Below the pieces are notes generated by a model. That model was not told the origin of the DNA. It did no database searches and was given only the letters and a program-made list of their open reading frames with translations. Shown here piece after piece: positions 1 to 57,100 of a stretch of DNA of 64,000 nucleotides (positions are counted from its first letter, which is position 1; each line of letters begins with the position of its first letter). This DNA comes from Tribonema minus (lineage: Eukaryota > Sar > Xanthophyceae > Tribonematales > Tribonemataceae). A program made the position numbers and the translations under genes. The stretch is taken from NCBI GenBank assembly GCA_017506865.1, contig JAFCMP010000024.1, positions 1,116,001 through 1,180,000 on the forward strand, given 5' to 3'.

Positions 1-3000
1 ACTTCAAAGTACTTCAGTATACCAGGTGCCAGCTGCAGGCGCCATCAGTTCAAGCGGCATGTGGTCATCATGGCCCGAACTGCGAGCCTGTAGGACCAAG
101 ATGTCCGTTGAGCATCACCTGGCGCTGCCGCTTCGGCTGGTACAACTATATGGCAACGAGCACATTAAGCTGGTGGCTTTGGCGCGAGCTGCCTGCGGCG
201 CTCAACTCACAGCAGATCGCATCTCCCAAAAATGCCATGAGGCACCACGAGTTTGCAAGCATTTGACGCAAAGCTGCATGCGACCGTGTTATACTGCAAG
301 AGCCAGGCTTGCTTGCTGCGGCGGTACTGATGCGCCACCGAATGGGTGCGTTGTCTCATTCCACCTGCTGCAGTCTGAGGCGGGCAACCCTCGGCGACGA
401 AGCCGACCAACAGACGTGCAGCAGTTGCGAACACGTTTGAGTGCAGGCTCCAGTGTGCAAAAGCCCACTGCCAATTCTGTGTGCACAAGCATATTGCCAC
501 TGCAGACGCATTCGGCTCTGCTGACCTCGGCCACGGATCAAGTGGCACATGCACACAACTTAACGCAGCGCTTGGCACGGTGTCGTCGTGCGCTGAACTG
601 AGTAAGGTGGAACCAATTTGAGGGATAAAGGGTATACAGGAGGGCAGATGTGCTCACCCTGATGTGTTTGTACACCTCGGCGCTGTACTTGGCACGTTTT
701 CTTCGTCATCTGCCGCATGAACTTAGTAAAACGCAACCATTTTGAGGGGATAAAAGGTGGCACATTCGGCCACCTCGGCGCTGTATTTGGCACGGTCTCG
801 ACATACTGCCGCCTGAACTTGGTGAAGTGGAACATGTAAATTTGAGGGATAATAGGCTACATAAGGGCGCGCTCGTGCTCACCCTGTTGCGTTGATAGAC
901 ATTGGCGCTGTAATGGCACGCTTTCGTTGTACACTGCCATTTGACCTTCGTCAAGTGCAACCAATGTTGAGAGCATTAAGGGTGCACCAGGGGGGCGGTT
1001 GGGCTCACCTTGACGCATTTGTAAACCTCAGCGCTGTAATTGGCACCGTTTCGTCATACAGTGACTCATACGCTGCTGCCTTGGTAAAACGCAATCATTG
1101 CAAGAGGATAAAGGGTACACAGGGGGGCGCTTGATTCTGAGAGGATAAAGGGTACACAGGGGGGCGCTTGATTCTGAGAGGATAAAGGGTACGCAGGGGG
1201 GCGCTTGAGCTCACTCTGATGCGGCGCCCCGCAAACTCCTCCATCTTGAAGTTGTGCTCATCCTGGTCCTTGGACGGCTTGGCCCTGTAGGCCTTGACCT
1301 CGTCCTCGAGCTCCTGTGCGCACAGACAGCGGAGATAGCGCATGCAGAGAGCGACGGTGGCGTCAGTGCTCTGCGTCACCTGCCTGCACTGTGAACTCTC
1401 AAGCGTTTTGAAGTGAAAGGGGGAGGTACGATACTTGATGCCGCACGTGCTTGTCTGTGCACGCGGGCTGCATTTGCACGATCTGCCTGAAAGTCAGCGA
1501 TCAAACGTATCGGTGCGTTATGTCCCGATGCTTCCAGTGGCCTTCCGCACACCGCAGTAACACAAGGCTGCCCACATTGAAATTGAAGTGGCTTGTGTGA
1601 ACGCCGGCTGCATTGACACTCTCTACAGCCAGCCCGCCCGGGAAACAGCGAACTTGAGCCCCTGAGCAGCACTTCATGCCACATACGATATGTTACATAC
1701 CTGGTACACGTCCTCGCTCTCGAACTTCTCAAACTCCTGCTGGCAGCGGTTGAGCAGCTGCGTGCGCAGCTGCGTCTTGCGCGTGCCCTGCTCGCGAGCC
1801 TGGTCCTCGGAGCCAAAGGCCTCCTGCGCAGTGCGAAGCGGACGTTCACACGACATTCACAGGTGGCAGTAGCAGGTTAGTGCATCACAGACGACAACCA
1901 GGGCACGCCACAGCAGCGCAAGAGCACCTCGCATGTGCCGTCCATGACGCAATTAGGAGGGCGGCACAGAAAAAGCAGCACACACACACCATGTCTCCCA
2001 CCCCCAGGCCTCCTCCACCACGCCGCTCTTTTGGTCTCCATGTTCTTTCTTACATCCATTCTTGCTTGCGGCAGAACAGCCCATGTACTAGGCCGCACTT
2101 CAAATTTCATCGCTCATACTTCTAAGTATTTGATGCGCAGCTGCAGCGTTACCTCACTAATTCGAATTTTTTTTTGCACACAGGCAGTTGTTGAACTCAT
2201 GTTCTAGACAGGCAGTTGTTGAACTCATGTTCTAGACCTGATGGCGTGGCACAAGGCGCAGCCGCGCTGCACTTGCCGCATCCACCCACCCCTGTGCTCT
2301 CTGCCGCACTCACTCAAAGCAACCAATTCACTGGTGGAGTGCACGCGCTGAAGTTTGGCTGCAGCGCTCAACTCGATGATGCAGTGCTGCGCGCGGCCCT
2401 CGTCCGCGCTTGCGAACGCGCAGCGGCAGCGTACGGCGCGCGCAGCAAAACTTCCAACTTCAACTCTTGCTGCGCGCCCCGGTCAGACGCTCACCTCGCC
2501 GGAGTACTGGTATTACGGCGTGCGTAAAAATTCACAGCCAACGTCAACTCTTGATCAGACACTCACCTTGCTCATAAAGACGCAGTAATACGGCGCACGC
2601 AGCAAAACTTCTTTTCCAACTTCAACTCTTGCTGCGCAGCCCCCCTGCTCCGGCGCTCACCGTGCTGACAGAGCACTGCCTCCTCGCTCATGAACACGCA
2701 GTGATACGGCGTGCGTGAAACTGTGGAACGGCGTGCGTGAAGCCTCACAGCCAACTTCAACTCTTGATCCGACGCTCACCTCGCTGACGGAGTACTGCGC
2801 GCGGCCCTCCTCCTCGCTCATGAAGACGCAGTAGTACGGCGAACGTGCTGAAACTTCACTTCTAAGTTCAGCTATTGCTGCGAACCCCCGTCAGCGCTCA
2901 CCTCGCTGACGGAGTACTGCACGCGGCCCTCCTCCTCGCTCATGAACACGCAGTAGTACGGCGTCGGCGCGACGACCTCCCCCTCCTCCGCCGGCGCCTC

Positions 3001-6000
3001 CCCCTCGCCCTCCCCCTCGCCCTCCCCCTCGCCGCCCCTCCCCGGCGTCTTGGCGCGCAGCACCTTGATGAACTTCTTGTCCTTGATCATGAGGCGCACG
3101 AGCTCCATGTCGCACGGGCGCGGGATGGGCTGCGGCGCGCCCGCCTCGTCCGTCGCCGCCGCGATCGCCTCCTCGGGACTGCGCCGCGGACATGACGGGA
3201 GGGAGGGGGGAGGGGGAACATGACTTCAACGTGTACCTTCAAGTAGACTGCGCGACACATGGATTCCAGGTGACGGCGACGTTATGTGCGGCACGTCACC
3301 GTGAAGCGTCAGGGTGAGAATGAAGACAAAGCGGGATGGACTGCGGCGCGTTGGCCTCGTCCGTCGCCGCCGCGATCGCCTCCTCGGGGCTGCGCCTCAG
3401 AACGCGTGTGAGCGTGACTTCAGGTTGACTGCGCGTGAACATGGATTCCAGGTGACTGTGACGCAGCGCGGGGCACATGACAAGGCGTTTCTTACATCAC
3501 CCATCCGCGCCTGCAGGCTGGCCCTCTTGGCTGAACCTTGCGGCTGCCAGCGACTACCTTGATGCCACACGCGAAACAGTGTACACTCAGGCGCAACGCT
3601 CATCAGCTGCGATGTCATCGAGGCATGCAGTATCGCCTGGCGTCCTCAACGATTTGCGGTACCAGCCCGCAACTATCAGCCCTCTCAACGGCCGCGCGTC
3701 GGTAAGATTTGTGCCGCCAGCATTGACAATCAGGGCAGCATTGTCGAGTCGCAGTTATGGCCACAACTCTGCATCACCCCAGACGCGCACCCGTGTGGCG
3801 TTCTCGTTGCGTTTAGCGCCTGCAAAAAGAGCGTGACTCAGTGCTCCTCACGGCAAGCGCGCAGCGTACACTGCAGGGGCTCGTGCCTGCTGTCGTGATA
3901 AAGACTTCAAGTTTGAAATACACAGGACTCACGTGTCAAAGGGGCCGACCACCTCTGTGTCCACGCCAACGTCCGTGATGTAGCACCACTGGTTGGCGTC
4001 CATGTTTTGCACGACCTACAGGGTCAGGGTGAGGGTTAGGGTTAGAATGAGCGACACTGGAGGGCAGCTGGTGAGCCACGATTCATGCACGCGTGAACAC
4101 ACGGCTCAGCGGCTCATTGACAACCGGCGGCAAGCATCCAAAACTTGCATGACCCTCGTTCTAGCCTAGGTGATCCTGTAAGCGCGTGACGTGTGCAAGT
4201 GCGCAACATGGCGGCGGGGCGTCCAAAACTTGCATGACCCTCATTATAGCCTAGGTGATGCCGTGAGCGTGTGACATGCGCATGTGTGGGTGTCACGCGC
4301 AGTCATGGCTGTGCAGCGGTGCCGTGACGAGCGGAATCGTTCCCATGCGTACCTTGATGAAGGTCCACCCGCTGCTCTGGCTGTGCAGGCGCACGCAGAG
4401 ATCCGCGTACATGTCCGCAAAGAAGTTCTCCTCAATGGCCTGCGAGCGGGCGCGCGGCGGAGCACGGTCGGGGGGAGTAGGGGGGCAAGGAACAGTGCTC
4501 TGTGAGTGTTTGTGTACTTCAGTACATGGAAGTCCATTTGATCAGGTGACGCACCACCACTTGATGGTGTTGTACAATTGTGCGCTCGAGTGCAAAGATT
4601 GCATGCACGTTCCCATCCGTATTTGAGGTGGTGATAACGCCTGGCTGCCGGTGTGGTGGTGGAACATACAAGTGATTCAACGTGTGATGCAGGGATGTAT
4701 CTTGGAGTCGCATGCGCAGCATCAGGAGCTGCCGGAACAAAGCCTCTACATCGTCATGGGTTTGTTCGCTAGACAAAAATCACCTTCAATTCCTCTATTG
4801 ACGACTCTCAATGAGCTAGACTTCTGCCGCGTCATGGTAAACCAGCGCCGGCTGCCAAGCGCGCTTCATTTCAACTAACCACACTGAAGCAAGAATGCAA
4901 AGAGAGAGCAATTGACGCGGCACTGCTCGCACGCACCTTGTCAAAGACCTGCTCCACCAGCGCCTTGAGCATGTCAAAGCTCTCCATCGGGATCTCGAGC
5001 AGCTGCTGCGAGAGGCGGTCAAACTTCTCGCGCGTCATCTTGTTCAGGATGCCCTGCACGACCTTGGTCATCTTGGCGAGCGGCGACGTGTCCTTCACCG
5101 GCACCCACCTGGTGCAATGTGTAGTATATATAAACGGCGCGGGTGAGTCATGCACGAGGCGGGCAAGTGTTGCATGCCATCAGGCTGCGGCGTTGCGAGG
5201 AGATGGCTGAAGTATTAGTTTTTGATGGGTAACTTTCTCAGAAGCATTTAACTTTCTGGGCTTTATATCTGCACGAGTCTGGTTTGCAATACAACCAAGT
5301 CGTGAGTTGCCTGATCACGTGTCAAATGCTCGCGTCCAGCGGCGGTGAGATGCAGCCTCTGGTGTTGACTTGCATTGATCAGCATTGCTGCACATGCAAG
5401 TCACGCGCAGGCACTGCCAAGTGCTGCAGAAAAGTCGCAGCAGAATTCGCTGCTCGGTTATGCCTGGCTCATCTCGTTTCTTCAGCGTGCTGCCCAGCCT
5501 TACCGATCTCAATGAGTGGGGAGAGGCAAGCTAGACGTGCGTGCGGCGCCGCGCAAGAGCTGTGCTCTGCAGGGGAGACGCTTGACGCTGCGCGTTGAGG
5601 GAAACCACGAGGCACCAGGAGCCCACGCAGGCACCGGCAAGTTATGCTGTGGGGAAAATGCCGTGACGAGCACTGCGTCGCCATGCGCACTCCGACGGCC
5701 AGCCGCCCTCAGCCGTTTGCACTACAAACGTTGAAGCGCGCGCGCCGCGCGGCACATGGCAGGGCGGCCACGTTCACAAAGGTCAGCGCTGTCGCCGCCG
5801 CCGCTGCCGCTGCCGCTGCCGCCAACAGCAACCACAACCACGCTACACACTACACTACTTCGCGAGCGCCCCGCCAGTCTCTGGCCGCTCTCTGCCCTGT
5901 CACCCCAGTCACCGCACCTGTTGGTGCCTGCAGCGGCTCGACGGGCCCGTCAAACACGCACTGCGCAGCACGTCTCAGGACGCAAAGGCCAGCAGCCAGG

Positions 6001-6509
6001 TCAGCGCAGCCGCCGCTGCCGCCGCCGCCGCCGCCGCCCGCAGCCCGCAGCCCACTACACTACTGCGCAGGCGCCGGCCGCGCCAGTAGCGCCACAGCCC
6101 TACCCTGTTGTACTGCATGTGACCTTTGAAGCGCACGCGTCGCGCGGCACAAGGCAGGGTGGCCGCGTTCACAAAGGTCAGCGCTGCCGCAGCTGCTGTT
6201 GCCGCCCCCCCGTAATCCGTAGTGACTACACTGCTGCGCAAGCAGGCGCCGCGCCAATAGCGCCGCAGCCCTACCCCGTCAGCTGAGTCATCGCACGCAC
6301 CTGTTGGCGGATGCCTGCAGGGGCTCGACTGGGCCGTCAAACAGGTCGGCGCTGTAGCCGCCGCCGCCGCGGCCGCCGCCGCGACCGCCCATGCCGCCGC
6401 GTCCGCCCATCGGGCCGCCGCCGCGCCCGCCGCCGCCGCCCTGCTGCTGCGGCGGTGCGGGCGGCAGCTTCGCACCGCGGCTCCACTGAGAGCCGCCGCC
6501 TCCGCCGCC

Positions 6510-6540
<31 letters not shown>

Positions 6541-12500: not shown

Positions 12501-15500
12501 GCGCGCGCCCTGCGAGAAGTCGACGCGCGCGCCCGTCTTGGGGTCCATTATCTCCAGCACCTTGCGCACGCGCTGCGATATAGGGGAGGGGGGGGGGAGG
12601 GGGGGGGAAGGGGGGGGGCGTCAGTCTCGAGAAGGGTGCCGCAAGTTGGTGCTGAAGCCATGTCCTCTGTGCGTAAAGCGCTTGAGAAGGGGGGGGGGGA
12701 GGGGGGAGCACGAGCTGAGCCACGCGCAACGCGCGGCAATTGCAGGGCTTGCAGGCTGGAGACCCACGACCTAGTCGAGGCGCAACGCATTCAGGTATGG
12801 GTGTTGCGAAGTCTTTGCACAGAGCAGACACCACTCATACTCGCGGTGCATCCCCTGCTGCACCTGTGCAGCAATCACCACACAGCAACTCCGCTCTGCA
12901 GCATTACGCCGCTGGTTCGTCACCCACTAGCGATATGACACGCTCAGGGCGTTGCAGAGGGAGTTGCACGGCAGGCCTTGCAGCACATGACAATTCTTCA
13001 GCAGTACACGGGCACTGCGAGAGCGCACTACATGCGCACTGCCATTCGGCAGTGCATGACACTGTGTGCCACACGTGCTGACGCATGTGACTGGCGGCAT
13101 TTAGAACTGTGGACTTGCTCGTGCTTCGCCGCCAACAAAAACGCGCAAACCATCGTCTGAACGTCCCTTTGCCCTCAACAGCAGCACGCAAGCGCCGACC
13201 GCGCGCCGCACTGACCTGCTGCACCTGCACGGGCGCCATCTGCTGCTGCGGCGGCTGCGGCGGCGCCTGCTGCGCAATGGGGGGCGGCTGCACCAGCATG
13301 CCGCCGCCGGGCACCATGCCCTGCATGCTCATGCGCTGTGCCATGATTTCAAAGCGCGCAAAGGGGCGGCGGGGACGGCGAGAGGCACGGCTCAGCAGTT
13401 GAAGAAAGGCAGGAGATGAAGAAAAGCACCTCAGCGATGCCCTCCGCTGCATGAGATGCGCTCAAAACTGCAGCTCACTGGAACAGGCGTCTGTGTACTG
13501 CGCGTGTTTCAAGCCACGACGGCTGTTTGCGGCGCCGGTACGGCCCTGTTGCCGCGCGCGTGCAATGTCAACGACAGGCAAAAACGACGCCGCATCAGAT
13601 GCCGCATGACACATCAGCTGACGACCGGCTGCTGCAGTGCGCGGTTCAACTACGCACTTCAAGTACACACGCACAGCCTCGTTCATGCGTACCTGCTGCT
13701 GCGGCATGACCGGCATGCAGCCTGCAGCGGGCTGCCGCGCGTACGTCGTGCAGCAGCAGCTTTTTGACCTTCAACAGACTCCGCAAGAAAAGCTCAGAGA
13801 CAGCAGCTTACAACCAGCTGCTGCAGTGAACATTTCAAAGATACTCAGCGTACAACTTCATGCATACCTGCTGCTGCGGCATGACCGGCATGAAGCCCGC
13901 AGTGGGCGGATACATGCCCTGCTGCGCGTACATCATGGGGTACCCGGGCTGCGGACGGCAGTGCACAGCGCAGAGCAGGGAGGCTGTAAGTATGACGCGC
14001 AAACAAAGGCAGCCATGAGCACGACCGCTCTGCTGGTATATAGTAGTGCTGATAGGCACGTAGAGGTGGCATTTTGTTGATGTCTACTGCATGGCTTACA
14101 CAGACAGCAGCAGCTGCTGGCGGAGGCTTTGACGGCACAGTTGCTGGTGCGCGTAGCAGCAGGCATGGACGAGCGGCATTGTATATGCTGGGCAAAGGCT
14201 GCAGCACCGAGCGTTGCAGCTGTGAGCCGCCACAGACGCACTCCGCGACAGGCATGCTTGTGCAAGTGAAACTAGCATTCAGCATTTCTACAGTGCTGCG
14301 TTAAATATGCTTTCTTCACGGCGAGCCATGCCCAAATCAGGAACATGTCAAGCCTGGCCTGACTGTTGCTAGCAACACCTGTTGCTGCAGCGCTGAAGCT
14401 GCTGAGCACCGTCCACGGCAGCAGGTGCCATGTATGAGTGGGCAACGCGCAAATAAAGGTTTGCTCTGAGCAAGCGTATAGCACATCATACACTCATGGC
14501 AAACTGGCGCTGTTGCGATGCAATTAGCCCTCCGCATGCTTGTCAGCGCAGGCTCTGTGTGACAGCCTGCCCAGCACGCTTCAGGGACCGATGCAGAAAG
14601 CGGCCAAGAATGCTGAAAAGTCGAGCACGGGGGTTTCACCTTGGCAGTGGCCAGGTGCTGGGTACTACGACTGCGCGACTTGTGAATGCTGCCGCACATT
14701 AGCGTTGCTTATGGCGCTCCGCTGTATGGTGCTTCAAAGATGACAGCATATAACACGGCGCAGATGCCAACCGCAGACGCTGCTGCAGCTCACGGTGCCG
14801 TGATGACGATCCCTAGGGTACTTCCAAAACACTAGTGAGCGCTCTGTCGGCCGCGATGCCAGCGGCACCGCCATGTAGCGGCTCCTGAAAGGGCAACTAC
14901 GCAGCAGCAGCAATGTAATGCGCTCTGCGACTACACTACACGGAACATGACGCCTATGCTGATCATGACCTCAAGTACTTTCATACACTTGTACACTAGC
15001 CTATACCACTCGAATTCGCACCTGCAGCTTGTACACTAGCCTATACAACTCGAATTCGCGGGGCGCACCTGCGGCTGGTGGCCCATGTAGACGCGCATCT
15101 GCTGCTGCTGCTGCTGCTGCAGGTACTGCTGCTGCTGCTGCTGCGGGTACAGGACCTGGGCGCCCATCTGTGCGAGACGCGCCCAACGAGCAGCAAAGAA
15201 AGCGCAGGTGAGAGACGCACATGAGGAAGAGAGGTGTACATAGGCATCACCGAACCGAGTGCGCTCTGCGTACGGCTGCGCCGTTCGGTGCGGTGGCTTG
15301 CAGCGCTATGGCCTGAGTGACTTGCGGTACCGTCGTCCATGTGCGCGTGCCCGTCAGCCCATGAGGCAGCTCATGCAGCACAGGGGGGTCGGCGGGCACA
15401 TCCGACTGCGAAATGCAGCGTCGAATGACACGTTGCCTAGCGCGGTCGGCATCACTTGCAGTTCACACAGCACCTGCTTTGCGCCGCGCCGCGCCGCGCC

Positions 15501-19838: not shown

Positions 19839-20049
19839 AAGGGGGTACCGAGCAAAGTTGGTAGAGCTCTACCCCGCTGCCTGCTCGAGCAGGGGGTGGC
19901 TGGAGAGTTGGGGTGGAGCAGGTGTAAGGAACAGGTGTGCTGGCACACACCCTGATTTCTGTGGGGACAACACAACACACACCGAGATCGGCAGCACTGC
20001 TCATCACTGTTTTCGATCTGATCTTCACTTCGATTTTCCTTCCAGCGTC
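19839..20049. promoter_or_regulatory. Divergent promoter region, eIF4G / GrpE
   Basis: Only 211 bp separate the two start codons, so both promoters and 5' leaders must share this stretch, unless 5' leader exons lie elsewhere. I see no convincing TATA box. Inferred from gene layout only. Confidence 0.5.
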
Positions 20050-24269: not shown

Positions 24270-24929
24270 ATGCGTCGGTCGGGTAAGAATTCACGGCGGT
24301 TACTTTGCAACGGTGCGAACTTTGCGGTGCTGCGCTGGGCGCTCGCCAACGGCTGCCCGCGCGACGCGACCACGACCGCGCGACTGGCGGTCGGCGGCCA
24401 CCGCCTCCCCATAAACATCAAGCGCTTCTGGGAGCTCATGGCCTCCTACGCAGACGCCCCGCCGTCGGAGACGCCGTACCTCAAGGAGCTTCAGTGGGCG
24501 CGCGCCAGCGACTGCCCGTGGAATGCCAAGACCTGCTCTTCAGCGGCGTTCTTCGGGCGCTTCCGGACGCTGCAGTGGGCGCGCGCAAACGGCTGCGCCT
24601 GGAACGAACACACGTGCTCCGCGGCCGCGCAGGGCGGGCACCTGCAGGTGCTGCAGTGGGCGCGCGCCAACGCGTGCCCCTGGGACGAGCGAACCTGCGC
24701 GGACGCAGCGGGAGAGGGGCACCTCGGCGTGCTGCAGTGGGCGCGCGCGAACGGCTGCCCGTGGGATGAGCAGACGTGCGCGCAGGCAGCGAGGTTGGGG
24801 CACCTCGGCGTGCTTCAGTGGGCACACGACAACGGCTGCCCCTGGGACGAGGAGACATGCGAGATGGCAGAGGACGGAGGACACGTCGAGGTGCTCAATT
24901 GGCCGCGCGCCAACGGCTGTCCGGGGTAG
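24270..24929 (+). CDS. Ankyrin-like repeat protein (GCPWDE-type repeats), intronless
   Basis: A 219-residue single-exon frame. From about residue 70 it consists of some five repeats of about 27 residues with consensus LQWARANGCPWDE-TCA-AA--GHL-V. An additional N-terminal half repeat (VLRWALANGCPRD) is present. GHLxVLxW is the ankyrin helix core; this subfamily is abundant in algae, oomycetes and large DNA viruses and is probably protein-binding. The last repeat is cut by a stop just after NWPRANGCPG. There is no obvious F-box at the N-terminus. The gene could be a truncated member of a larger family. Its lack of introns contrasts with every neighbour. Confidence 0.75.
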   Translation: MRRSGKNSRRLLCNGANFAVLRWALANGCPRDATTTARLAVGGHRLPINIKRFWELMASYADAPPSETPYLKELQWARASDCPWNAKTCSSAAFFGRFRTLQWARANGCAWNEHTCSAAAQGGHLQVLQWARANACPWDERTCADAAGEGHLGVLQWARANGCPWDEQTCAQAARLGHLGVLQWAHDNGCPWDEETCEMAEDGGHVEVLNWPRANGCPG

Positions 24930-27100: not shown

Positions 27101-27279
27101 CCCTAGCCTTAGCACAGTGCACTTGAGGTCGCGCCTGACTCGCCCTTGTCACAGCGGGCGGTACACGCGCCGCCGCCGCGCGATGGAGCCCCTAGCCTTA
27201 GCACAGTGCACTTGAGGTCGCGCCTGACTCGCCCTTGTCACAGCGGGCGGTACACGCGCCGCCGCCGCGCGATGGAGCC
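27101..27279 (-). repeat. Perfect 89-bp duplication of the sulfatase C-terminus and stop
   Basis: Two identical 89-bp units (27101-27189 and 27190-27278). Each encodes, on the minus strand, SIARRRRVYRPL and a TGA stop plus 3' flank. The upstream (27190-27278) copy ends the frame; the second is therefore 3' untranslated. The perfect match implies a very recent event. Confidence 0.93.
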
Positions 27280-42100: not shown

Positions 42101-45100
42101 AGATGGAGCCACACTTTTTTTTTTTTGCGGTGGATGTCACATGAGCGTTCCTGGACCATGTTCTCCGCGCGCGCAGGGGGATAGACGCCATGTCCCTGCA
42201 GCGCACCGACAAGACCATGGCGGAGCTGGAGGTGGAGCTCAACAAGTCCTACGACTTCAGCAAGGTATGGGTATGGGCCATCGATCGGGGCTGTACGCTG
42301 CTTTTGTACAAGTCGATAGCGAGACGGGTCGACGCGTTGGCAGTTTTCGAGTCGCAAAGCATCCGTGGGCATTTATTTTCCGTTCACTGTGCCGTTGAAG
42401 CTGCACTTCCGTGATGAATGCATCATGGCACCAATGATGTGTAGAGCACCCTGTACATCCGCGCAATTTATTGCGGTCAGTGAGGTGTATACACAATGCA
42501 TCGTGGTCGTATGACTTCAGCAAGGTGTTGCCCCCCCCCCCCTCTCCTGTGCTGCGCCTGTGCGCATTCGCAAGAGGACAGCGACATGGGGGGGTGCTTG
42601 ACATGTGGCATCAACTCGCCAAGCGTAACTTTGAAGTATTTGAACTTTATCCGTAGCTCACTGTGCGCTTTAACTGCATGGCCAGTGACGCGACGTATGC
42701 AGGCGCCGATGGTGCTTGGTCATGCTCATTGGACGTTCTCACACTCTCCGAAGTAGTCCGCCAAATGTGCAAGTGCATTGGCTTCTGGCGCAGGTAACCA
42801 TGCAGCAGCGCTCACGACTCGTGACTCTAGTGACTCTCCCCTTCATGACGGCCCACAATATATGACTCATGACTTGCACACCGCTTGTGCCTCTCCGTGC
42901 CTGGGCCGCAGATCACGGAAGCCGGCAAGAAGTTGACGCCCCTGCAGGGCCCGGGCTACACGGGCCTCAAGAACCTGGGCAACTCGTGCTACATGAACTC
43001 ATGCCTGCAGGTTAGCACGCGCTGCTTCCATGGCACCTGCTTGTTGTTGTTGTTGTGTTGCCCTGTCATTAGTGCCCTCGTGCCATTTGGTCGCTCAACG
43101 GATGCTTGTTGCAACTGTTACGCCGGTATCGTCTCATGCAAGCATGGGCGGACATTAAGGGTCACCCTTAGCCGTGAAGTTGGTGCTCAAGCCTCTCAAG
43201 TCTTAATTCAAGAGTGTGTCAACGGCAAGCGTTGATTCTGTCCACCTGAGGAAGAATCCGCAGAGTATTTGCTGCATGCGAGCAGCTGTCCTGGCAATCA
43301 CAAACTGTTCGAGAAAACCTCATGCTCGAGTGGTCATGTGCATACTTTGTGCCACATGCTATTCACGGTTGTGTTTTAAATACTATTTGTGAGCATGCTG
43401 TCGGCTGCTGCTGTGTAGTTTGTGCATACCTGCCAGCAAGGCCACAGCTCAGATATCATGCATTGGACGCGTGTCACTAATTGATTCAGCGGGCAAACCC
43501 TGCACTACCTTCACACTAGCAGACGCAGACAGGCACGATGGGCACATCAGTTGCAAAGTGACGACAGCCGAACTGTACAGACTCTACTGAGTAATGACTA
43601 GCACCCATTTTTATACTGCACACATACGTGATCATCTCATTATGCTCATCATATGTAGCCACTGTGGACCACGCTGCGCTGCAACAGCCCATTCGCATCA
43701 GCCGCACTGTTCAGATCAGCGTCTCACGTGCGCATGCACATGACTGTTTTTGAGGGCGCTCATCAACCGCATCATCAGGGCTGGTCAAATCATCGCGCAA
43801 TTTCTACTTGAGCGGCCGCTGACACGATCGCGCACTGTTGATTCTCTTGCCACCTGTGCAGCTGCTCGGCGTACTTCCCGAAGTGGCCCAGCGCTACGGC
43901 GCAGAGGCGCAGCAGGTGCGCGCACATCTAGGGTTAGGGCAGTTCTCGGGCAAGTGTTGCCGGCGGAGCGTTGCTGCAAGTGGGTTAGAATGAGGGTCAG
44001 GTTTAGGTTTGTTTAGGGTTAGGTTAGGGTTAGGGTTAGGATTAGGCCTAACTGTACCCCAAACCTAACCCTTACCCTAACCCTAATCCTAACCCGAGTG
44101 TTGCCGGCGGAGCGTTGCTGCAAGTGGCAGGCCGGCATGCCGGCGACGCTCTTAGTAGACACTAGGGTAGGCGCGGAAGTCCCAGTGAGAGACGCTCACG
44201 CGCTCTGCTGCTGCGCACAAGCACGTGCTAACCACACAAAGCCCGTGGAGTGCTTGAAGTTGCTGTTCCAGCTGCGCTACAGCCGCTATACGGTATTGTG
44301 TGAGCTGTCGGCATCCCCTGCAAGCTTACCTACTGTAGCACCTGTCCTTTGCTCAGCATAGTACCGAACCTGCCAATGATTAGGCCCAGGAAACGTGCTG
44401 GCAGACAGAGTGAAACAGGTTGTTAGTCGGGCGCTGGCTGCGCGCAGTCAATTGCTATGATGCATGGGATGTAAGAGGTGCACGGACCCGGCTAGAATTC
44501 AAGGGCCAACATGCCGAATTGGACTCTCTGTGAGGTGAGCCAGGGAGGGCCTTGTTATGTGGTGAGCATGCTGGTACCTGCGTGTCTGGCGCTGAGCACC
44601 CATCGCGGCGCGCCCACCCATGCTCACCCTTACTCCCGCGCTGCGCATTGGCATTATCATCATGGCCGACTGGCGCCGTGAAACGTCAGCAGCCCCACGT
44701 TCCTCGGCTGCGTTTTCGCCCGCTCTGCCGCAGATCTTCCACGAGGCGCCGGCGGACCCCTCGAGCGACTTCCGCACTCAGGCAAGCCCTGCGCCACGCA
44801 GCGCATGGCGCGATTGTGTCGCCTTCACGCTGCGCTGATGGCATCTGCACCTGCCGTCGCGCTGACCTGCAGAGGCCGCGCTACAGGCGTCCATCGCGCA
44901 ACATGCGTTGAAGCCTGGCGCGCTCGCGCTTGCGAATGCTTGTGATCGCAGCCTGTGTGAAGTACCAGAGTATCTTCGCAGAGTATCGACCGATTCGCGC
45001 AACTGCCGTGTAGCCGTGGGTCACAGGCATGTGCTTGCATCTGAAGCTTTGCGCTATCTGCTGTACTGCGCTGTGGTCATTTGAGGCCAGGACACGACTG

Positions 45101-48100
45101 CTGATGCGCCATTCTGCGTCGTCACACGAGCTTGGTAGTCCATGGGCACAAGCTTGTTCTCATGTGGCGCTGAGGGTGGTGTGCAGTTGGAACCCTTTGA
45201 AAGTGCACAATGCGCTGTCCGACGGCACATGCAGATGGTCAGTATGACCCAAATAGGTGCCTTCTGGATGCCCGGGTACTTCTATGATTTTCGCACTTGC
45301 TGAGCACGGCTGCTCGCCATCAGCATTCATCAGTGCTTCAGCTGCACACCAGCAAGCAGCGTCTCTGATGGTGCGTGCCACAAAATTATCTATGGCATTG
45401 TTTACTGATGTCCCTTCCCCCGTCGCCGCCACGCGTGCAGATGGCCAAGGTGGTCAGCGGCATGCTGTCCGGCAAGTACTCGCAGGTGAGGCGTGCTACC
45501 CAGCGCTCAGCACCCAATCGGTACTCAACAAGGATTCTGCAGCTAGTCAAAGTTGCGTGTTGCTGTGAGAGAGCCGCAGGAGCTGCTTTCCCACGCAGAT
45601 TGAGCCAACTCACACGCTCTTACAGCGCGCGCTGCAGTTGTGGTGGTTGCGTGCAATCCTGGGAAACAGTTCACACACAGAAAAATGTTTGACATTGTGG
45701 CAATTTTTTGTATTACATATAGCATCCTCTCCGCATAGTTGGACATGTATGGAATTTGAAGCGTGAGTTGAAAGGTTACCCACCGCGTTAACACATTACA
45801 CTGAGCAATCAACGTGACAAAAACCAACAAATCAGTCGTGTAGTCCATGCCATATATCGGCAGGCAAGCACCTTGTACTTGTTGTGACGTCGCGGCGCTT
45901 TGTACTGATCCATGTGGGGGCGCCCTTTGGTGCGCCATGCGAGAGAAAGCCATTCTGCACAGCTCTCACATGGCCGGACCAGCATCATCTCATCTGCTAC
46001 CCATTGGTTGTGTCACTTTCTATGCAGCTTCCGGAAGAGGCCTCCGCATCCGATATGGAAGTTTCCCCGCCATCCGCTGAAGTTTCCGGCGGCGGCATCG
46101 TGGAAGAGGCGGCGCCGCGCATGTTCCGACAGCTTGTCGGCAGGGGCCACGCGGAATTTTCCACGGGGCGCCAGCAGGTGAAGTAAAATACGGTCTTTCA
46201 AAAAAAAGTCTTTAGTGTATTATATACTTCTTAAATAGAAGTAGTTAATAAATAGAAGTAGTTAATAACTATTAGTTATGATGCAGGAACTTCCGGCATC
46301 GTGGAGTAAAATAAAGTCTTTTCAAAAACGTCTATTGGACTCAAAATATAGTTATGATGTGACCGCCATGCGCCACTCGGAATGCTCCACAGGGCGCCAG
46401 CAGGTGACTGCAACTAATTCTGGTCCTCCGGAATTTTCCACAGGGCGCCAGCAGGTTATTGCAATTGAATTCTGGTCCTTAGCATCCAGCAGCTCATTTT
46501 TTTTGCGGCAACCGCACGGGCTTGTTCATTAATGCGACTGCGACATCGTTTTGTGTCTGCGGCGGAATGGGTCAGTTCTGTTTTGTTTTATGGAGTGTTT
46601 GTCAAACGTCGTTCGTAACTGCTGTCCCTCGATGCATACTTGAATTCAGATCGGCGCTCACTTGGCGTCATGTGGTCTTGTGGCACTTGCGCCAAGGCGC
46701 ACCAGCGCAATGCCAGTCTCCAACTGTGTGAAGCCTCAGCTGATAGTTGAGGTTTTCTTGAGCTACTGATCGCCGCTGCCTTTGCACGACCTGCTCCGAA
46801 CACGCCCGTTGATAGCGTCACTGCAGCAAGCACACGTGCAGCGTGATCATGAGGCTGCTGCGGTGAGCCACCATACTCGTATCAAGTACTTGTGTGCAAA
46901 ATACTTAAAGTACACTTTTACGCACTATGCAAAAAACTACAACACACCGATAATCAGATCTCAAGTGCTGTGGTGTGATGATCTTGTGGCAGGATGCTGT
47001 GGAGTACATGCAGCACCTGCTGCAGCTGCTGGAGAGGAACGAGCGGCGCGTCGGCGCCGACGGCGCCGCACTGCCCACGCACTCGCTCTTCCAGTTCAAG
47101 TGTGAGGACAGGTAAGGCTCTGCGCTTCACTTTCGATGACCTACACCGGCAGCTGCTCTGGGCACAAATAGTTCAGCTGGTCTTTACTTCAAGTTTTTGT
47201 ACTTCTCAAATGTGTCTGGAGGTGTTGTGGGCACGGCCGCTGCTGTGCCCGCCCCCATTGGTTTCGCTGCGCAAGACTCTCTCCCAGTTCGAGTATGAAG
47301 GCAGGTGAGAGCTTCCCGCAGCTGCACCGGCTCCAGCATTGATGCCCAACACTGCCACATGAAATTGGTGCTTGGCTGCTATGCCCTGGCCCCTTCCTCT
47401 TTCTTTCTCTGCGCAAACCTATTCCAAAAACCGGTTGCACCAGCGGTGGTGTGCGCTGGCGGCCGAAGCGCATGCGCTGCTGCGATGGGCAGCAGGTCTT
47501 GCGTTTGCAACGTTGGTTGTCATCTGCATCAACGAAAGGTGCAGGAATTCAACGCTCACTTTCAGGAACATAGAGCCCATGTTGAAGTGTATGTAGTGTC
47601 GTCGGCTGTCGGCAAGACAGTGCTACGACAAATATTACTGGTCACAGTGCAGCGCTTACGATGCCGCGCCGGCAGCGTGCGGGGCTGCGCGCCGTGCGCC
47701 CTTGCGTGAACGCTCTTATGGGTGCTGAGCCGGGTCACGAGTCGTCATACGCTCGTGGCGCGCATTCCAATTGACTCAGCACGCTGCGCCTTGACGGCAC
47801 ACACATTGATGGTTGACGCATTTGCTGAGCGCTGATGCTGCGACGCCGCCTGCGCGCTGCGCCGCGCCCGCAGGCAGGAGTGCATGCGCACCAACATGGT
47901 GCGCTACCGCGAGGGCGCCAAGGAGAACGTGCTGTCGCTCAAGGTGCGGTTGCGTATGTATGTATATGTGCCTGTGCGTACCTTGGTCGGATCGTCTATG
48001 CATTCTCTCAAACCAGGCTTGAGTACTGACAGCAGCGACTGACTGCACGCGCTCCGGCGACCAGGTACAAGGAGCACGCAGCGTTCTTGTGTGCCACCGT

Positions 48101-51100
48101 GGTTGCCTACTGTGGACGAGGATTGGGGCTGTGAAGTCCGGATCTGCATTCCCAGGTTGCATGAGTTGACGCCCAGTGATTTTGTTTGTACGGATAATCG
48201 CAGGGCCAAGCTTCGTACAGCAGCACATCAAGCCCTAACCTAACCCTGCCTGTGACACCAACTCAAACCTGCCCCTCATCCTAACCCTTAGTCAGGCCCA
48301 GTGATCAATGCATCTGCAGTGCGGCTGTACCCACTTCCTGCTGCACTCCTCTCCTACAGGGCGCATTATTGCCTGAACGCCCTGATTATTTTCACATGTA
48401 CCTGCCATGCGCAATGCTGGTTACGAAGGGTAGTTGGACGGCTGTTCGGTCGTAGCAGGTCGTTGACTTGGTGTCTGTGAATGGCTGCGCCATGTGCGCG
48501 GCGCAGCATGGCAGTGGGCATGCAGTGACAGCGCGTTGCTTCCCGCGGCGCAGTGTTCGAGACTTCTTCCGCTCATGTCTTCCATCACAACTTCAACGTG
48601 GAAGAGGCTGGCGGCGATGCTCCCCTCTCCTGTTGGCTGCGGCGCATTCAGACGCGCTGATCGCCGCCTCTCTCTGCATTTCTCCCCTTTTGCAGATACC
48701 GCTGGAGGCCGCCACCAACAAGGCGGAGGTCGAGGCGTACAAGGAGCGGGTCAGCAAGAAGCAGAAGGTCGGCGACGCCGCGCAGACATCCGCCGCAGAG
48801 GACGAGGAGGCGAGTTCAGCGCACGCGCCATTCGCTGCAAGCGTTTGTCAGTCATTGCCTCGAGTTTGTTTCATAGTTCTAGAAGTATTTTCTACCTGGC
48901 TCAAAATTCTTGTGACTGCTGTGACCGGTCTACGCTGCTACACGGTGCAGCGCTGTGGTCGCCTGCTCCCAGCGAGACGGACTCTGCTACAGTAATCATG
49001 CACACCACACTGCGGTGCGAATGTACGCCAGCGTCAATCCTCGTTGCAGCCGCATGAGCATTGGCACGACCTTTCTGCCGCCTGCCCCCACTGCACCCCT
49101 TGCCGCGCTCCCGAGGCACGACGCTGCAGTGGATGACTCATGCATGTACTCGCCGACTCGTTGTGGGGGCGCGTTGCTGCGTAGACCGTGCACTCTGCGG
49201 CTCTGCTGTCGGCGTGCCTGGAGGCGCTTTGACTCACTCACTCACTCACTCACTCACTCACTTGCTGCGTGTCGCATTGATCAAAAGGAGGTGCACCCCC
49301 CCAGGGCTGCTGGCCATGTGCCTGGAGGCATTTTTTACGCAATTCACTCACTCACTCACTCACTCACTCACTCACTCACTCACTCACTCCCTGACTTGCT
49401 CTGCTCCAGGAGGTGCGCCCCGCAGTGCCCCTGTCCGCATGCCTTGAGACCTTCTTTGCGCCGGAAATGGTGGCGAATTTTATATCCACGGCGGTGCCGG
49501 GCCGCGGCATGGCCAGCAAGAGACAGGTGGGTGGGGGTCACACTTTCAGCGCTTGCTTCTTTGACTTTTGTACCGGCAGAAACTGTTTCTGGATATGATG
49601 TACCACTAATAGAAATTGGGCAATTGTTGTGCACAGACTGAAGAAGAGGCAGTTTAATGCATGGCTGTAGGCGCGGTTCGATAACACCTTGTGGTGAGAC
49701 AAAGAGTGTGTGACTGATTGACTCTACTTGGAAGTATTATGTGTTGTGAGTCGTTTCATGTTGAATGTGCGATCCTCCACATCCCATGTTCATTCAAAAA
49801 GCGGTCCAATGTACGTGTTCCTTGCATGCGAAAGATTCAGATCAGACTGTCAGGTATGCATTTCGCGGCAACACATGACAGATGCGCCAAGAGATTGTGG
49901 CTTTGGTTTGACGGGTCAAATGTGTCAGCGCAAGCGCCTTGAATCCATGTTTCAACAGCACCAACAGATGCTTTGCCAGCCTCTGGTCTGACCCACATTT
50001 AACATGACAGTTTGTAGGTACAACTTACAGGATACTTTGTAAAAGTCTTGAATATGAAATTGCTTATTTGCGCGCCACTGACGCACATCAGCAGCGGAGC
50101 AAAGGTACCATGGGCTGCACATCATGACCCATTTCCTTCGTTTAAACTGCCACTGCTAAGTATCCTAATCAAAGCAAAGCTCAAAATTCAAACGTAATTA
50201 GCCATGCCAGCCCGCCTGCTCGCATGCCAGCCACCTTTGTGTCACCGCTTCACAACGCAACAACAGTATGCTATGCCATCAAACACACCCCGCCTCGCCC
50301 ATGCTCATCTTCAATTCCGCGCCCGCCCTGTTCTGTGTGCCATCCACATTAACAACATCAAAAACCTCAAACTGCGTATGTGTGCGCGAGCTCCGCTGCC
50401 CTTGCGTCAGCGTTCCACCACCTGTCAGCACGCCATAAAAGATCCCCCGCCTCGCCCCCCATGCCCACATGTCATCTCCCGTGTCACGCGTCCCAACCCT
50501 AACCCTAACCTAAGTTGACCCTGACCTGTGCCTCGTTTGTCGCCGTGCAGCGCCTGGCCAACTTCCCGCGCTACCTGCTGGTCCAGCTGAAGCGCTACTA
50601 CGTGGACGAGTCGTGGCAGCCCAAGAAGCTGGAAGTCGAGGTGCGTCACAGGTTGAAGTGTGCGAGACGCGAAGCTTGCTTGGTGTTCGCCCGTCTGCAG
50701 AGTGATGTTGTCAGAAAGTGCTTTCGCACGAGACGCCAAACTCAACGCATCCGCCCTCCTGCGGACCCAAGTTGGCAAAAAGCGCTTCAATGCAGCTCGA
50801 TGGCACCACACTGTCAGAACCTGCACGCCAGGCTGACCTCAGGTCGGCGTGGAACGGGCGCAGCATGTATGCTCATGCCAGGGCGTCCTTGCGATCGCTG
50901 CAAGCGACCCAGATGCGCGTCAAAACCTCTAGAACTTGCATCTCGGAGGTGCACACGCCCCGATGCGGCTTTGCCCTCGAGATAACCGCCTGTGCCGCAG
51001 CGCTGCGCTGGCGTCACAGCAACGCTCAGACGCAGTAGCGTGCCACACAGAAGCTGCCCTCAAATTTCTGAATCATCTCGGCCCTACCTCCGCAACTTGA

Positions 51101-54100
51101 CAGCGCTTCGTTCTGTGCACTTGCCTGCCCTCTTATTAGGTTGACGTGCCCGACAAACTGGACCTGACGGCATTCAGGGCGCAGGGCCTGCAGCCGGGAG
51201 AGTCACTTCTGCCAGAGGAGCCTGTGGGCGGGGCAGCAGACGCCGCCGCCGCCCTCGCGCCGTCTCCAGGTGCCGCTGATGGCAAAGAAAGATGATCGCT
51301 GCGTGAATATAGTTTCTCTAGATTGATCAAATCCTGAATCATACCTCAAGGTTGAAGGAAGAGTTTCCCGACTTTGCCGAACTTCTTGGGTGCTGCACGG
51401 CTCAGCATGTGGGACAGCTGCTGCTTCCGCCGCCCTTGCGCCGTCTCCAGGTGCTGCTGACGGCGCATGAAAACTGTGCAGTCGAAGGTGTCTGGGTGCT
51501 GCTTGGCTTGCGGATGGTTGCTACTCTCCAGCTCGAACTGGAAAGAAGTGGTACCTCGTGCTGAAATTTACAGACCCACAGTGGACCCACATTGCAGATG
51601 CGATGAACAGCGCAATACGGCACATGCCCCAGCGTTGCCTGAGCGACTGGGATCTCTCGCTCAGCAGCATGTACAGGCATGCGCGGCGCGTGAAGGATGT
51701 TAACTACATTCCTGAGGGTTACCTTCATCGCAAACACGCAGTACCGACCTTCATCGCTGCAGCCGCACTAATGCTTAAACCACCAGCCAGATCCCGAGTT
51801 GGCAGGCACAGCTCTATGCGGAGCGCGCACATGCTGTACAAGAGTTCATGCGCATTTCGCATCCAAAACCCAATATGCCCGTGCACAAATGCTTGCGCAC
51901 GCCTGGTGTCCGCGAGCGCGCGTGCGCTGCACTCGCTAACCCTAACCCCAACTTCAACCCTAAATCTGCAGCCGTGGCGTCGGTGCCGGATGAGGCCATC
52001 GTGGCGCAGCTCCTGGACATGGGCCTGTCGCTCAACGGCAGCAAGAAGGCGGCGCTGGCAACGGGCAACGCATCTTCCGAAGCCGCCATGGAATGGGTGC
52101 GTGCGCAGACTGTACAGCATGTGTACGTCTATCTGTGTAGGGGCGATGCGTCATCCGAAGCCGCCATGGAATGGGTGTGTTCGCAGAGTATGTAGCGTAT
52201 CCGTGTAGGGGCAACGCGTCATCCGAAGCCTCCATGGAGTGGGTGCGTGCGTACAACGTATGGTGTTTGTATACTTCAATGTGTGTACAGGCCTTGGATT
52301 GGGTGCGCGCGCAGAATGCTATTGTGCACTTCGATGTTTGTGCGGGCAACGCGTCATCCGAAGCCGCCATGCAGTGGGTGCTTGCAGAGAGCGTACAGCG
52401 TATGTGTGTAGGGGCGACGCGTCGTTCAAAACCGCCATGGAATGCGTACTTCAAAGTCTATACGAAGTAGTCTATACGAAGTAGCGATGGAGGGGCTGCG
52501 TGCATAGAACGGATAAAGTATGTGTCGTAAACAAAAGCCTATTTCTGGCAAATAATATGTACGTACACCGCGCAAATTTCTTGAACCAAGGTGTCGCTGG
52601 CGACATGGTGAGTGTGCTGATGTAACCCTAACCCTCACCCTGATGGGGTTCGACAGTGTTTTCTCCGTGATCGCTGTGTGATGCATGCTCCTTGCACAAG
52701 CACAACGCTCGGCTGAACGCCTGGTGCTCGCTGTGCACAGTTGCTGTGCTCGCACTCATCGCTTATGTGCGATTTCTGATGCACGTCGGCGCTGTCTGCA
52801 GTACTTCGAGCACTCCACGGACGCCGACTTCGATTCACCGGTCATGGAGGCCGGTGCTGCCGCCGCCGCTGCGCCCGCCACTGGTGGTGAGTGCCTCTAA
52901 CTCTTTGTGTGTGTGATGCATGTATGCTCGAACAATTCCGCTTTTGTGTTTTCTTTGGGGTCTGCAATGCGCACCCTGCTCTCTCGTCCAAGGTTTCTGA
53001 AGGTCAGGTTAGGGTGCAAATCAGGGTTAGGCTCACCCTTCCCCTCCTACAGTGAGAGGACACGCTCCCGGTGATTCCCGTTGAGTTACCATTGTGGCGC
53101 GCAGTGCGATGAGGCATCGATGTTGTTGTTGTGTGAATGGTCAGGCCGATACGCCCTGGCTGTATCAGATGCCCTGATACTGCGCAGCTGTTTTTAATGA
53201 GCCCTGCAGAAGCAGGAGCGGAAAACACAGCGCTCAGCGGCAGTGAGCAGTGCTCAGCTCAGGTCATGGTTGGAATGGTCAGCTCTGGACCAGAATTACC
53301 ACTGACCCATATCAGCACCAGCCGGCAAATCGGTATTGCGATCACGCGCATGCGTAGCGGCGGTTGGCACAGGTGAGGTTCTTGCTGCCATGCCGCCGCT
53401 GCTTTGACAATGGGGGAATATCACGACGCAAATGCCCCAATTAATGTGACATGGTCGTTTGGTCCAGTCTCGCTCGCCACCATGCGGAGGTGGTGACCAT
53501 GCCAATATGAAAAGTAGTCGTGGTGAGTCTGCACCTGATGCGCATGGCGCGCACTGATGGCAGTGCTCACGCATCGCCGCACGCGTTTTTCACTTGACAC
53601 AGGCGCATCCTTCGATCCCGCCACGGTTCAGGAGCTGTGCGGCTTTGGTTTCACTGAGGAGCAGGCAAGTGCTCACAGTTACCTGTAGGGAGCCCATTGA
53701 AGTGTTGGAGTACAACCTCAGTCAGAACATTGCAATCATAACCTATGCGTAAATCTCAGCCAGCGAGTGCATGCACATTGCCATTGCACGTGGAAAGACT
53801 GAATCCGCATTTCTGGGATAATACCTTCATTTTCCTCTGTACAGCGAAGTGTCGCCCCAGTTTTGTTGTTGGAAGGACTATTGGAACATGCAAAGGTTGC
53901 AACGTCATTGTAATATGGAAATACTTATCAGTACACACACCCTCATCACCAATTTCCATGTAGTTTGTGAACACATGGAGTCGTCATCTCAGATTATCGA
54001 TGACACGACCGGCCCATGTTGTCCCTGCAAGGTGTAGGCTAAAGACACAAGTGATTTACTGATTAATGGCTTTGAACCGCTCTGTTTAACACAGGAAATT

Positions 54101-57100
54101 GAAAGAATTGCTGAGCTGTGCAGCAGCTCCATTTACAAGTACTAACTTATCAGGTCGCTTCAAAGCACAACTACGTTCTGTGGCTTGTTTTGTTGCAGAG
54201 AAGGATACTTCAAGTACATGTCAGGGGGCCCATGTGGTGATTTGCTGAACAATTCCCTGAATTACTCGCCGTCCGCCGCAGCACTCACTGCCTGATTACT
54301 CAACCATTTCTTCCCCTGGTGCCGCTCTCACTCCGTTGAAGGCCGCGCTCAAGCCCACCGATGTCGGGCCGAACAACCCCCTCATCATTCGGCGTCCGGC
54401 GCAGCACTCACTGCCTATTTAATCATTCCGTCTGTTCATGTGAACAATCCCCTGCATCATGTGCCGTCCGGCGCAACACTCACTGCCTACTTACTTGGTC
54501 ATTCCCTCCGCTTGTGCCGCGCTGACACACACAGGCGAAGGCCGCGCTGAAGTCCACCGATGTCGTGCCGTACTACCCCCTGTATCATCTGCCGTCCCGG
54601 CGCAACACTCACTGCCTATTGAATCATTTCTTCCACTCGTGCCGCTCTGACACATGTGCAAGTCCACCTATGGGGCGCTGAACAAGCCCCCTGTCTTATT
54701 TGCTGTTTGCGCAACACTTACTGCCTATTTAATCATTGCGTCCGTTCGTGTCACTCCGAGACACACAGGTCAAGGCAGCGCTCAAGTCCACCCATGTCGT
54801 TCTTAGCAACCCCCTGCATCGTTTACCATTCGGCGCTACACACTCGCTGCCTACTCACTCCAGCATATCGTCCGCTCGTGCCATCCTGAACAATCCCCTA
54901 GGTCATCTGCCGTCCGCGCAGCAATCAATGCCTATTTGCAACAATCAAATTTTTTCCTCAATGATTTCTTTCGCTCGTGCCGCTCTGACACACGCAGGTG
55001 AAGGCAGCGCTCAAGTCCACCGGCGGCGCGGCGGACCGCGCCGCGGACTGGCTCTTCAGCCACGCCGACGACATGGACGCGGCCGTGGCGGCTGCGAACG
55101 GCGCCGGCGCCGGTGAGTCTTGACTCGACATATATTACTGTATGTGTGTTGCGGGTGTGAACATGCACGATCATGTGATGGTCGCAAGCAGCACTGCGGT
55201 TTGCGGTGGCGGGGTGACCATGCATGATTATGTGATGGTCGCCCGAAGGCACTGCTAACGGCGCCGGCGCCGGTGAGTCCTGCCCCGACGTACGTATGTA
55301 TGTATGTGTGCCACGGGCGTGACCATGCGCACCATGTCTTGCCCGGACGTATGAAAATCTGCTGCGAGTATGAATATGCGTGATACTGCGATGGGCGTTT
55401 GAAGCGGCACTTTGGACGGCGCCGGCGCCAGTGAGTCCTGCCCCGACGTACGTATGCATGTGTGCCGCAGTATGACCATGCACGATCGTGTGATGGGCGC
55501 CCAAAGGTACTGCGTCGCAAGATCCGCCTATGGGGCAAAGGCTGTTTGCCGCACAACATGGCGCCGGCGCCAAACTGTCTGGAGGATTTGTTCATGAACG
55601 CTGTAGGCCGAGAAAAGAGCGACTGTGGTCAGAAAGCCCAGCGTAAGGGGCAGAAAGGGTATGAGGGTCCCGCAGGGGGTGAAGACTGCAGCAAGGTGTC
55701 TGATGGAGGACACAAGGCAATGGGTGCTGGTGCCATCTATGCTGCTACAAACGCAGGAGTTACCACAGAGGTCAGACGGAAGCACTCAGTGACATCATCC
55801 ACCCTGCCATTGTCTGCGTTCATGTTTGCTGCTGTTGTCGCAGTGGCGGCCCCTGCAGGAAGCGCGGGCGGCGCTGACGATGCTGCCATCGACGATGGGG
55901 AGGGCAAGTGAGTGCTGCTGTGCAGATACTTCAAAGTACTAGTAAGGCGGGCTTTGCTCTTGCACTGACTTGAAGTGCATGTAGGGAGCCTGCTCTCGTT
56001 GCTGAGACTGGGTGCACTTTTTGGTAATACTGTCAGCAAGAAGAATCTGAGCACGCAGCAAATCAGGACCGCAGCTAATCGACAGCTGCAGTACGATGTG
56101 GCACAACGTGACGCGACATTGGCAGATCGACATGCTCTGCTATGTATTTCAAAATGTTACGAGCACGCTGTACAGTCCTTAGCACACTAATCAGCCATGC
56201 GCAACTAGCGGCCAAGTGTAGGAGTCTTGTATGTATGGCTGACGAGAGCTGATTTACTTGACAGAACAATAATGGCGTCAGACAATTTGCATGTCGGCCA
56301 CGGTTTGTTCCCAGATGTTGCGGGCAATCATCGCGCAGACAAGCAGCAACGTACGACACAAAAACAGTTTTGATGCACCAAGGAGTTCCTGTGCGTTTGA
56401 ATGCCATCTGTCTTGACTCGCACGCCAGCAGACGTCGCCGTCAGAACAATGTCGTCAAACACCTGCAGGCGGATGCTGCTGCCATGCACAACAAACCCGC
56501 GCACATGTTGGCCACAAAATGCGGCCCTATGCTCCGCCCCCGTGCCGTCGCTCTCTGGCAGCTGATTACCCGCGCACGTTCTGGCCACAGAATGTGGCCC
56601 CTATGCTGCGCACTGGTGCCGTTGCCCCCCATGCAGAGTAGTTACTCATCACGCTGCGCTCACGCATCCCCCTCTCAGGTACACGCTGGTGGGGTTCATA
56701 TCGCACGTAGGCCGCTCGCTCGGCAGCGGACACTACGTGGCGCACATCAAGCGCGAGGGGCGCTGGGTGATCTACGACGACCTCAAGGTATGCATGTATG
56801 CGACGCCGACAAGCACTGAGCACTGCGAGAGGCAGGTCTGCAAGTATGCCTCTTCTGCGGCAAAGGATTTCTTTTCGTGTTTGCTGACCGTCAGAGCGGT
56901 AGTGCGTGTTGTTCTTGCGCTTCTGCGAGAAGGCTGACAGAACAGGAACGCCTTGCTGCTGCCACCTTAGTATCATCCAGAAATTTGAGGTTTCAGCTCA
57001 GGGTGTGATAAATTGTGCCTGTTAGAGCACCGCATTTGTTTCTGTTTTTATTTTTGCGTAAAGTTTGTTTCAACCTCATGTGGCTCCTTGTTGAGCGTAC

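Follow-up and report, generated by a model that had tools for sequence, protein, structure and literature searches.

How do copies of exon ends, complete with their splice sites, come to lie inside the introns that border those same exons, and do they mark exon boundaries as places where DNA is duplicated more readily than elsewhere? The question is raised by a 64-kb stretch of the Tribonema minus genome (contig JAFCMP010000024.1; hereafter the window, to whose numbering all positions refer), in which an original prediction, made from the letters alone, had described such tandem copies at 16 exon edges of an eIF4G-like gene, a sulfatase gene and a USP5 gene. All counts given here come from this single window, with arrays in these three genes. 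The edge arrays are real, and the best explanation, which is given a probability of roughly 0.6, is that ordinary small tandem duplications are tolerated at exon edges, with the excess of arrays at edges reflecting the geometry of this tolerance on introns that were once shorter, perhaps together with a modest mutational bias.

Head-to-tail copies carrying the exon end, the splice site and the intron flank were found in the adjoining intron at 15 of the 16 named edges, ten of them donors (eIF4G exons 6, 15, 19 and 21; USP5 exons 10, 15, 16, 21, 22 and 25) and five acceptors (eIF4G exon 19; sulfatase exons 5 and 6; USP5 exons 19 and 25). The remaining edge, the donor of USP5 exon 8, was not borne out: the model donors nearby (38318, 39527 and 41971) score 21, 22 and 28 against shuffle maxima of 32.5-34, with the caveat that the gene model may be without that exon. 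Exon numbers of the present models agree with those of the original prediction for eIF4G and sulfatase; for USP5 the original number is inferred to be the model number plus 5. The arrays are as follows, with the true site named first and the spare copies after it.

535-1215, reverse strand: donor-flank array of eIF4G exon 21; true donor after 1215, spares near 1008, 882 and 657, weaker ones at 769 and 554.
2365-2971, reverse strand: donor-edge array of eIF4G exon 19; true donor after 2902, spares at 2779, 2660, 2566, 2494 and 2371.
3120-3481, reverse strand: acceptor-edge array of eIF4G exon 19; true exon start 3178, spare at 3389 with its AG intact.
5698-6465, reverse strand: donor-edge array of eIF4G exon 15; true donor after 6301, clearest spare at 5917, downstream acceptor of the intron not settled.
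13586-13907, reverse strand: donor-edge duplication of eIF4G exon 6; true donor after 13868, spare at 13692.
28248-28809, reverse strand: acceptor-edge array of sulfatase exon 6; true exon start 28300, spares at 28461 (AG intact) and 28628 (AG lost).
29634-29959, reverse strand: acceptor-edge array of sulfatase exon 5; true exon start 29641, spares at 29745 and 29878.
42247-42545, forward strand: USP5 donor-edge copy; true donor after 42264, spare at 42525 (probe z 7.1, per-intron expectation value (E) 7.5e-4).
46138-46479, forward strand: USP5 donor-edge copies; true donor after 46177, spares at 46404 and 46455.
47072-47309, forward strand: USP5 donor-edge copy; true donor after 47111, spare at 47305 (probe z 6.9, per-intron E 3.6e-4).
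49263-49461, forward strand: USP5 acceptor-edge copy; true exon start 49410, spare exon start preceding an ACTC microsatellite (E 9.4e-17 with the microsatellite).
51230-51464, forward strand: USP5 donor-edge copy; true donor after 51269, spare at 51451.
52062-52525, forward strand: donor-edge array of the USP5 UBA exon; true donor after 52096, spares at 52175, 52243, 52303, 52378 and 52446.
54243-55036, forward strand: USP5 acceptor-edge array; true exon start 54998, spares near 54336, 54535, 54656 and 54769.
55073-55513, forward strand: USP5 donor-edge array on the other side of exon 54998-55112; true donor after 55112, spares at 55273 and 55431.

Per-intron BLAST at E ≤ 1e-3 gave an edge-spanning copy in 14 of 52 introns, about a quarter of those examined and a dense occurrence for three genes, and intron-only copies in four (USP5 introns 3 and 7; eIF4G introns 2 and 17). 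Hits in eIF4G introns 10 and 14 were set aside as exon-exon low complexity, and the match at USP5 46177, which stops 4 nucleotides (nt) beyond the edge and was output by the script as int/int, was counted as an edge. The donor array after eIF4G exon 21 comes in addition to these 14. The per-intron comparison and a BLAST of the window against itself agree on the arrays. Chance matches are few: dinucleotide-shuffled introns produced 0.33 hits per 52-intron set at the same threshold (three shuffles), and the exon-masked self-comparison of the window gave no hits in five shuffles and none in inverted orientation. The copy at USP5 49410 persists when the microsatellite is removed, with a score of 48 against 30.5 for the best of 500 shuffles. 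In the GrpE gene, the per-intron comparison found no array in any of the five introns. Self-BLAST overlooks repeats close to the main diagonal, so the BLAST counts are informative for periods from about 50 upwards; for shorter periods, Tandem Repeats Finder (TRF) was run on each intron and sulfatase intron 6 was aligned. The alignment revealed in this intron (28088-27620) an intron-only repeat, its period near 50, which had escaped BLAST. The original view that few comparable arrays exist elsewhere needs correction, as intron-only arrays are not rare: the four introns at E ≤ 1e-3 become seven at E ≤ 0.01, and sulfatase intron 6 is to be added to them.

That the listed edges are true exon edges is clearest in USP5, where the spliced model matches human USP5 (3ihp, residues 205-832) with E 2.7e-146 and the exon-adjacent copies are therefore the real ones. 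The gene models came from a small hidden Markov model that was trained on 1087 codons of peptides from the window, with 88% G+C at the third position, and were then curated; pseudo-exons called inside arrays and weak terminal exons were left out before anything was counted. The USP5 model (22 exons, 645 aa) and the sulfatase model (7 exons, 610 aa) are open throughout without a stop, and GrpE and sulfatase domains were confirmed in the window. The eIF4G-like gene is open across exons 1-11 and 16-21, with the phase of exons 12-16 not settled in the model, and its match to MIF4G (E 2e-5) lies under the curated cut-off of that family. No relative was found in viral_contigs with the USP5 and sulfatase proteins, and none in genome_contigs with part of USP5. 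Among the 43 model donors outside arrays, five have GC instead of GT (44782, 53665 and three others), some of which may be mis-called.

Across the edge arrays the period runs from about 50 to 260 bp, with 2 to 6 copies per array. The true site is the first copy in donor arrays and the last in acceptor arrays, which is in each case the copy joined to the exon body. The share of exon in the unit varies: the array at eIF4G exon 21 is mostly intron flank and donor, with an exon part of just 8-10 nt or so, and at USP5 46177, 47111 and 51269 recognisable homology covers just 44-54 nt around the edge. Separate arrays flank both sides of two exons, USP5 54998-55112 and eIF4G exon 19; in the latter, the copies appear to have intron parts of two alternating types, as in the amplification of a dimer. 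An assembly artefact would find some encouragement in a perfect duplication at 27101-27280, described further below. The copies within edge arrays, on the other hand, are mostly 10-40% divergent and carry independent indels, unlike the product of a mis-assembly, and an artefactual origin is extremely improbable.

The fate of the spare copies was followed in 13 of the 15 arrays (all except eIF4G exon 15 and USP5 49410), which supply 31 spares whose alignments were extended outward from the junction until the score dropped, identically on both sides. In 36 comparisons of spare with spare, identity is the same on the former exon side (1167/1467, 79.6%) as on the intron side (1418/1791, 79.2%). 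Compared with the true site, spares are more similar on the exon side (841/994, 84.6%) than on the intron side (1265/1596, 79.3%). The equal decay among spares together with the higher exon-side identity to the true copy is as predicted for neutral drift beside a constrained master, and the spare copies thus drift without constraint when unused.

Selection on the spares as alternative or decoy splice sites could be read from the intact GT or AG in 26 of the 31, and from the strength of many of them: in a slightly different set of 31 spares from 14 arrays (all except USP5 49410), 27 keep the dinucleotide and 11 of these also score equal to or above the true site. These counts are not independent because copies within one array share a history, and the retention of 26 dinucleotides is close to the 22 or so expected from the per-base identity of 84.6%. 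The former exon side, moreover, shows no extra conservation among spares. Use of a spare would also nearly always break the reading frame, as the inserted length is a multiple of three for just four of the 31 spares and only one of these insertions is free of stops (52175, 78 nt). A function for the spare copies is thus very unlikely. The original prediction had seen a process that keeps making spare splice sites; this stands merely as a by-product of duplication, with spares that drift neutrally and can almost never be used productively. Well-preserved spare edges can mislead automatic annotation all the same, and the spare start of eIF4G exon 19 is intact enough for the gene finder to have called an exon there (3389-3342). 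Spares whose scores often match or exceed that of the true site, in genes whose frame needs the exon-adjacent one, also amount to a natural experiment in splice-site choice, in which the spliceosome would have to prefer the site next to the exon.

The preferred explanation, ordinary duplication tolerated at edges, would work in the following way. Small tandem duplications with units of about 50-260 bp would arise from the repair of staggered breaks or from slippage, and the duplicated units would then be multiplied through ordinary repeat dynamics. Duplications that straddle an edge would be tolerated because the exon-adjacent site is kept: the copy beside the exon body would retain a complete splice site, and the extra copies would fall into the intron and decay there neutrally. 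The excess at edges would most likely follow from this geometry on formerly shorter introns. Duplication in the window also extends beyond splice sites, to a unit that spans a stop codon, a coding ankyrin array and the intron-only arrays.

No description of arrays like these was found among the open papers searched, and several known systems resemble them in part. In tandem exon duplication a whole exon is duplicated with both of its edges; exonic sequence is repeated in tandem in both cases, with single edges copied here, and the per-intron comparison showed no tandem duplication of a whole exon. Tandem duplication within genes has been treated as a source of introns: internal gene duplication, and the creation of introns through tandem duplication of genomic sequence, are associated with Rogers 1989, Gao and Lynch 2009 and Hellsten 2011 (as cited in PMC4974935, PMC3443670), and exonic tandem duplication counts as one way to gain introns in the available text of PMC3443670, PMC2891723 and PMC4974935. 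The likeness to this model lies in small, splice-site-bearing duplications that fall partly into an intron. Here, by contrast with the model as these sources give it, the junction that is copied and the intron that receives the copies were both present beforehand, no intron is created and the AGGT signature is absent.

If the introns themselves had been born by tandem duplication of an exonic AGGT (the Rogers/Hellsten model), with the arrays as a remnant, splice sites in tandem copies would be expected, and they are present. Traces of such a birth should then also link the two ends of an intron, but over 51 introns the 3' end of the intron resembles the end of the upstream exon no more than a control (mean score 12.6 against 12.7), nor does the intron start resemble the downstream exon (12.2 against 12.2), and in the introns read directly the arrays end well before the opposite edge. 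This makes an origin of the introns in AGGT duplication highly improbable. Introner-like or other mobile elements inserted at junctions would be a further source of repeated splice sites, and introners are reported in 5% of searched species in the accessible part of PMC9860276. Repeats in the window are confined to their own introns. At separations above 1500 bases (window, low-complexity filtered, E ≤ 1e-3), the only matches are three GC-rich ones, mostly in called or putative coding sequence, and an introner origin is disfavoured for this reason to the point of being scarcely credible. Within this window the arrays are not introners and carry no intron-birth signature; they are best read as junction copies inside existing introns.

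Related in logic are UBC and VCX3A, whose introns are embedded in tandem repeats with dual-specific splice sites, and for which it is argued that expansion of a spliced-out repeat carries little fitness cost (PMC10809524, in the text available). Splice sites lie inside repeat units in both systems and the same reasoning on tolerance applies. In UBC and VCX3A, as described there, whole repeat units make up the length of the intron and a single site serves as both donor and acceptor; here each unit carries one type of edge and ends in the intron. Short direct repeats near intron borders, pairs of 4-30 bp between the two borders of one intron, have been interpreted as insertion scars (PMC11782384, available part). 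They share with the present arrays the position around exon-intron borders; here the units are longer and lie at one border, 2-6 times. The type of origin proposed here has its counterpart in the small tandem duplications that form from filled-in 3' overhangs of 43 and 50 bp at nuclease breaks in mouse and human cells (PMC8355091, available part), a system that concerns neither exon edges nor units of 100-250 bp; this repair route may apply to the present arrays by analogy. In the available portion of a study of Daphnia tandem repeats (PMC3152781), the word 'splice' is absent.

Whether edges are favoured beyond what tolerance alone would leave was assessed with a null in which a unit may be placed anywhere inside an intron or across one edge, up to the length of the exon (capped at 150). 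The null was devised after the data had been seen, with unit lengths, copy numbers and exon overlaps entered by hand from the alignments, and its 18 arrays omit eIF4G exon 21, for which the models lack the following exon, and sulfatase intron 6, which was found late. Several results weigh against the preferred explanation. On present intron lengths, 14 of the 18 arrays lie at edges where 4.27 are expected (P 9.3e-7, odds ratio 11), and subtraction of the extra array copies from the introns raises the expectation only to 6.56 (P 2.2e-4, odds ratio 6). When exons are masked, 10 arrays can still be detected and 8 of these lie at edges (P 1.0e-4 and 3.4e-3), a subset that omits the hits at 535-1133 (eIF4G exon 21), 49136-49376 (microsatellite) and 63219-63802 (low-complexity, putative coding). 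In 7 of 14 arrays, with USP5 49410 left out, homology on the exon side stops 38-43 nt from the edge (scan P 2e-4), a cluster that would not be expected from tolerance. Introns free of arrays have a median length near 580 nt (38 introns, hand count), and the shorter ancestral introns therefore lack independent support. Finally, a duplication that carries a second competent donor should be, if anything, more harmful than one internal to the intron.

A mutational hotspot at exon-intron boundaries, through breaks, stalled forks, R-loops or nucleosome edges, would make duplication several-fold likelier there than in intron interiors. This would account for the odds ratios of 6 to 11, for the exon-masked subset, for the common border on the exon side and for the two exons arrayed separately on both sides. 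The excess shrinks, however, with laxer detection. At E ≤ 0.01 three more introns with intron-only copies appear, giving 14 edge against 7 intron-only (shuffles 0 and 0.4); the nearest computed probability is P = 0.0087 for 14 of 22, sulfatase intron 6 being what would be the eighth intron-only case. At E ≤ 0.05 and 0.2 the counts are 15 against 7 and 15 against 8, with eIF4G intron 14 counted as edge (shuffles 0 for edges, 0.6 and 1.0 for intron-only). The excess is also gone if introns were once about 250 nt or less: ancestral introns of uniform length give P 0.20 at 250 nt and 0.044 at 300 nt, and introns of 200-250 nt lead to an expectation of 14.1 to 11.9 edge arrays of 18 where 14 are seen. 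In TRF no row crosses an edge, and all intron rows of period 10-50 are intron-only.

A comparison of edges with mid-intron positions had been proposed as a check on the original prediction and, in its simplest form, it yields no clear edge excess: at P < 0.05 copies were detected for 12/51 donors and 7/51 acceptors against 24/138 mid-intron probes, and at z > 4 for 9/51 donors, 3/51 acceptors, 6/51 donor flanks, 4/51 acceptor flanks and 18/138 mid-intron probes. This test is confounded because the best mid-intron probes come mostly from array-bearing introns (11 of 14 fall in introns with an edge array). The border cluster near 40 nt is post hoc and its borders are fuzzy; a strict subset of 11 gives P 0.02-0.08, and the border is a lead. 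Taken with the restriction to one window and three genes, these results make a boundary hotspot unlikely. A more specific form, in which the hotspot acts on units longer than about 50 nt, prefers to start about 40 nt into the exon, is placed by a feature of transcription or splicing (a paused polymerase, an R-loop or a nucleosome edge) and makes introns grow from their edges, is quite unlikely.

The excess over tolerance ranges from P 9e-7 to 0.0087 according to null and detection, for units of about 50 nt or more in one window, which makes an edge bias for such units suggestive, not decisive. Of the original proposal, the recurrent duplication of edges that lengthens introns stood, with an excess confined to these longer units and weakened by several controls. 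If a bias at edges is mutational, exon structure would be linked to DNA repair, and introns could grow from their ends. If tolerance alone is at work, any apparent enrichment at junctions must be weighed against unit length and past intron length.

The window holds further repeats outside the edge arrays, among them one duplication that looks very recent.

27101-27280, reverse strand: perfect tandem duplication, 89 bp x 2, over the sulfatase stop codon and 3' flank, with no splice site.

A coding ankyrin-like array with tandem repeats of 81/162 bp occupies 24326-24926. Telomere-like TTAGGG/CCCTAA runs occur in USP5 introns at 44013-44095, 50496-50509, 51939 and 52625, one of them lying between the two copies (43953-43983 and 44097-44127) of a perfect 31-bp direct repeat; such runs are possibly scars of break repair. 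A short palindromic motif, TACTTCAAAGTA, which may be a small mobile element, recurs at 29794 and 55927, with TACTTCAAAG also at 6880 and 52447.

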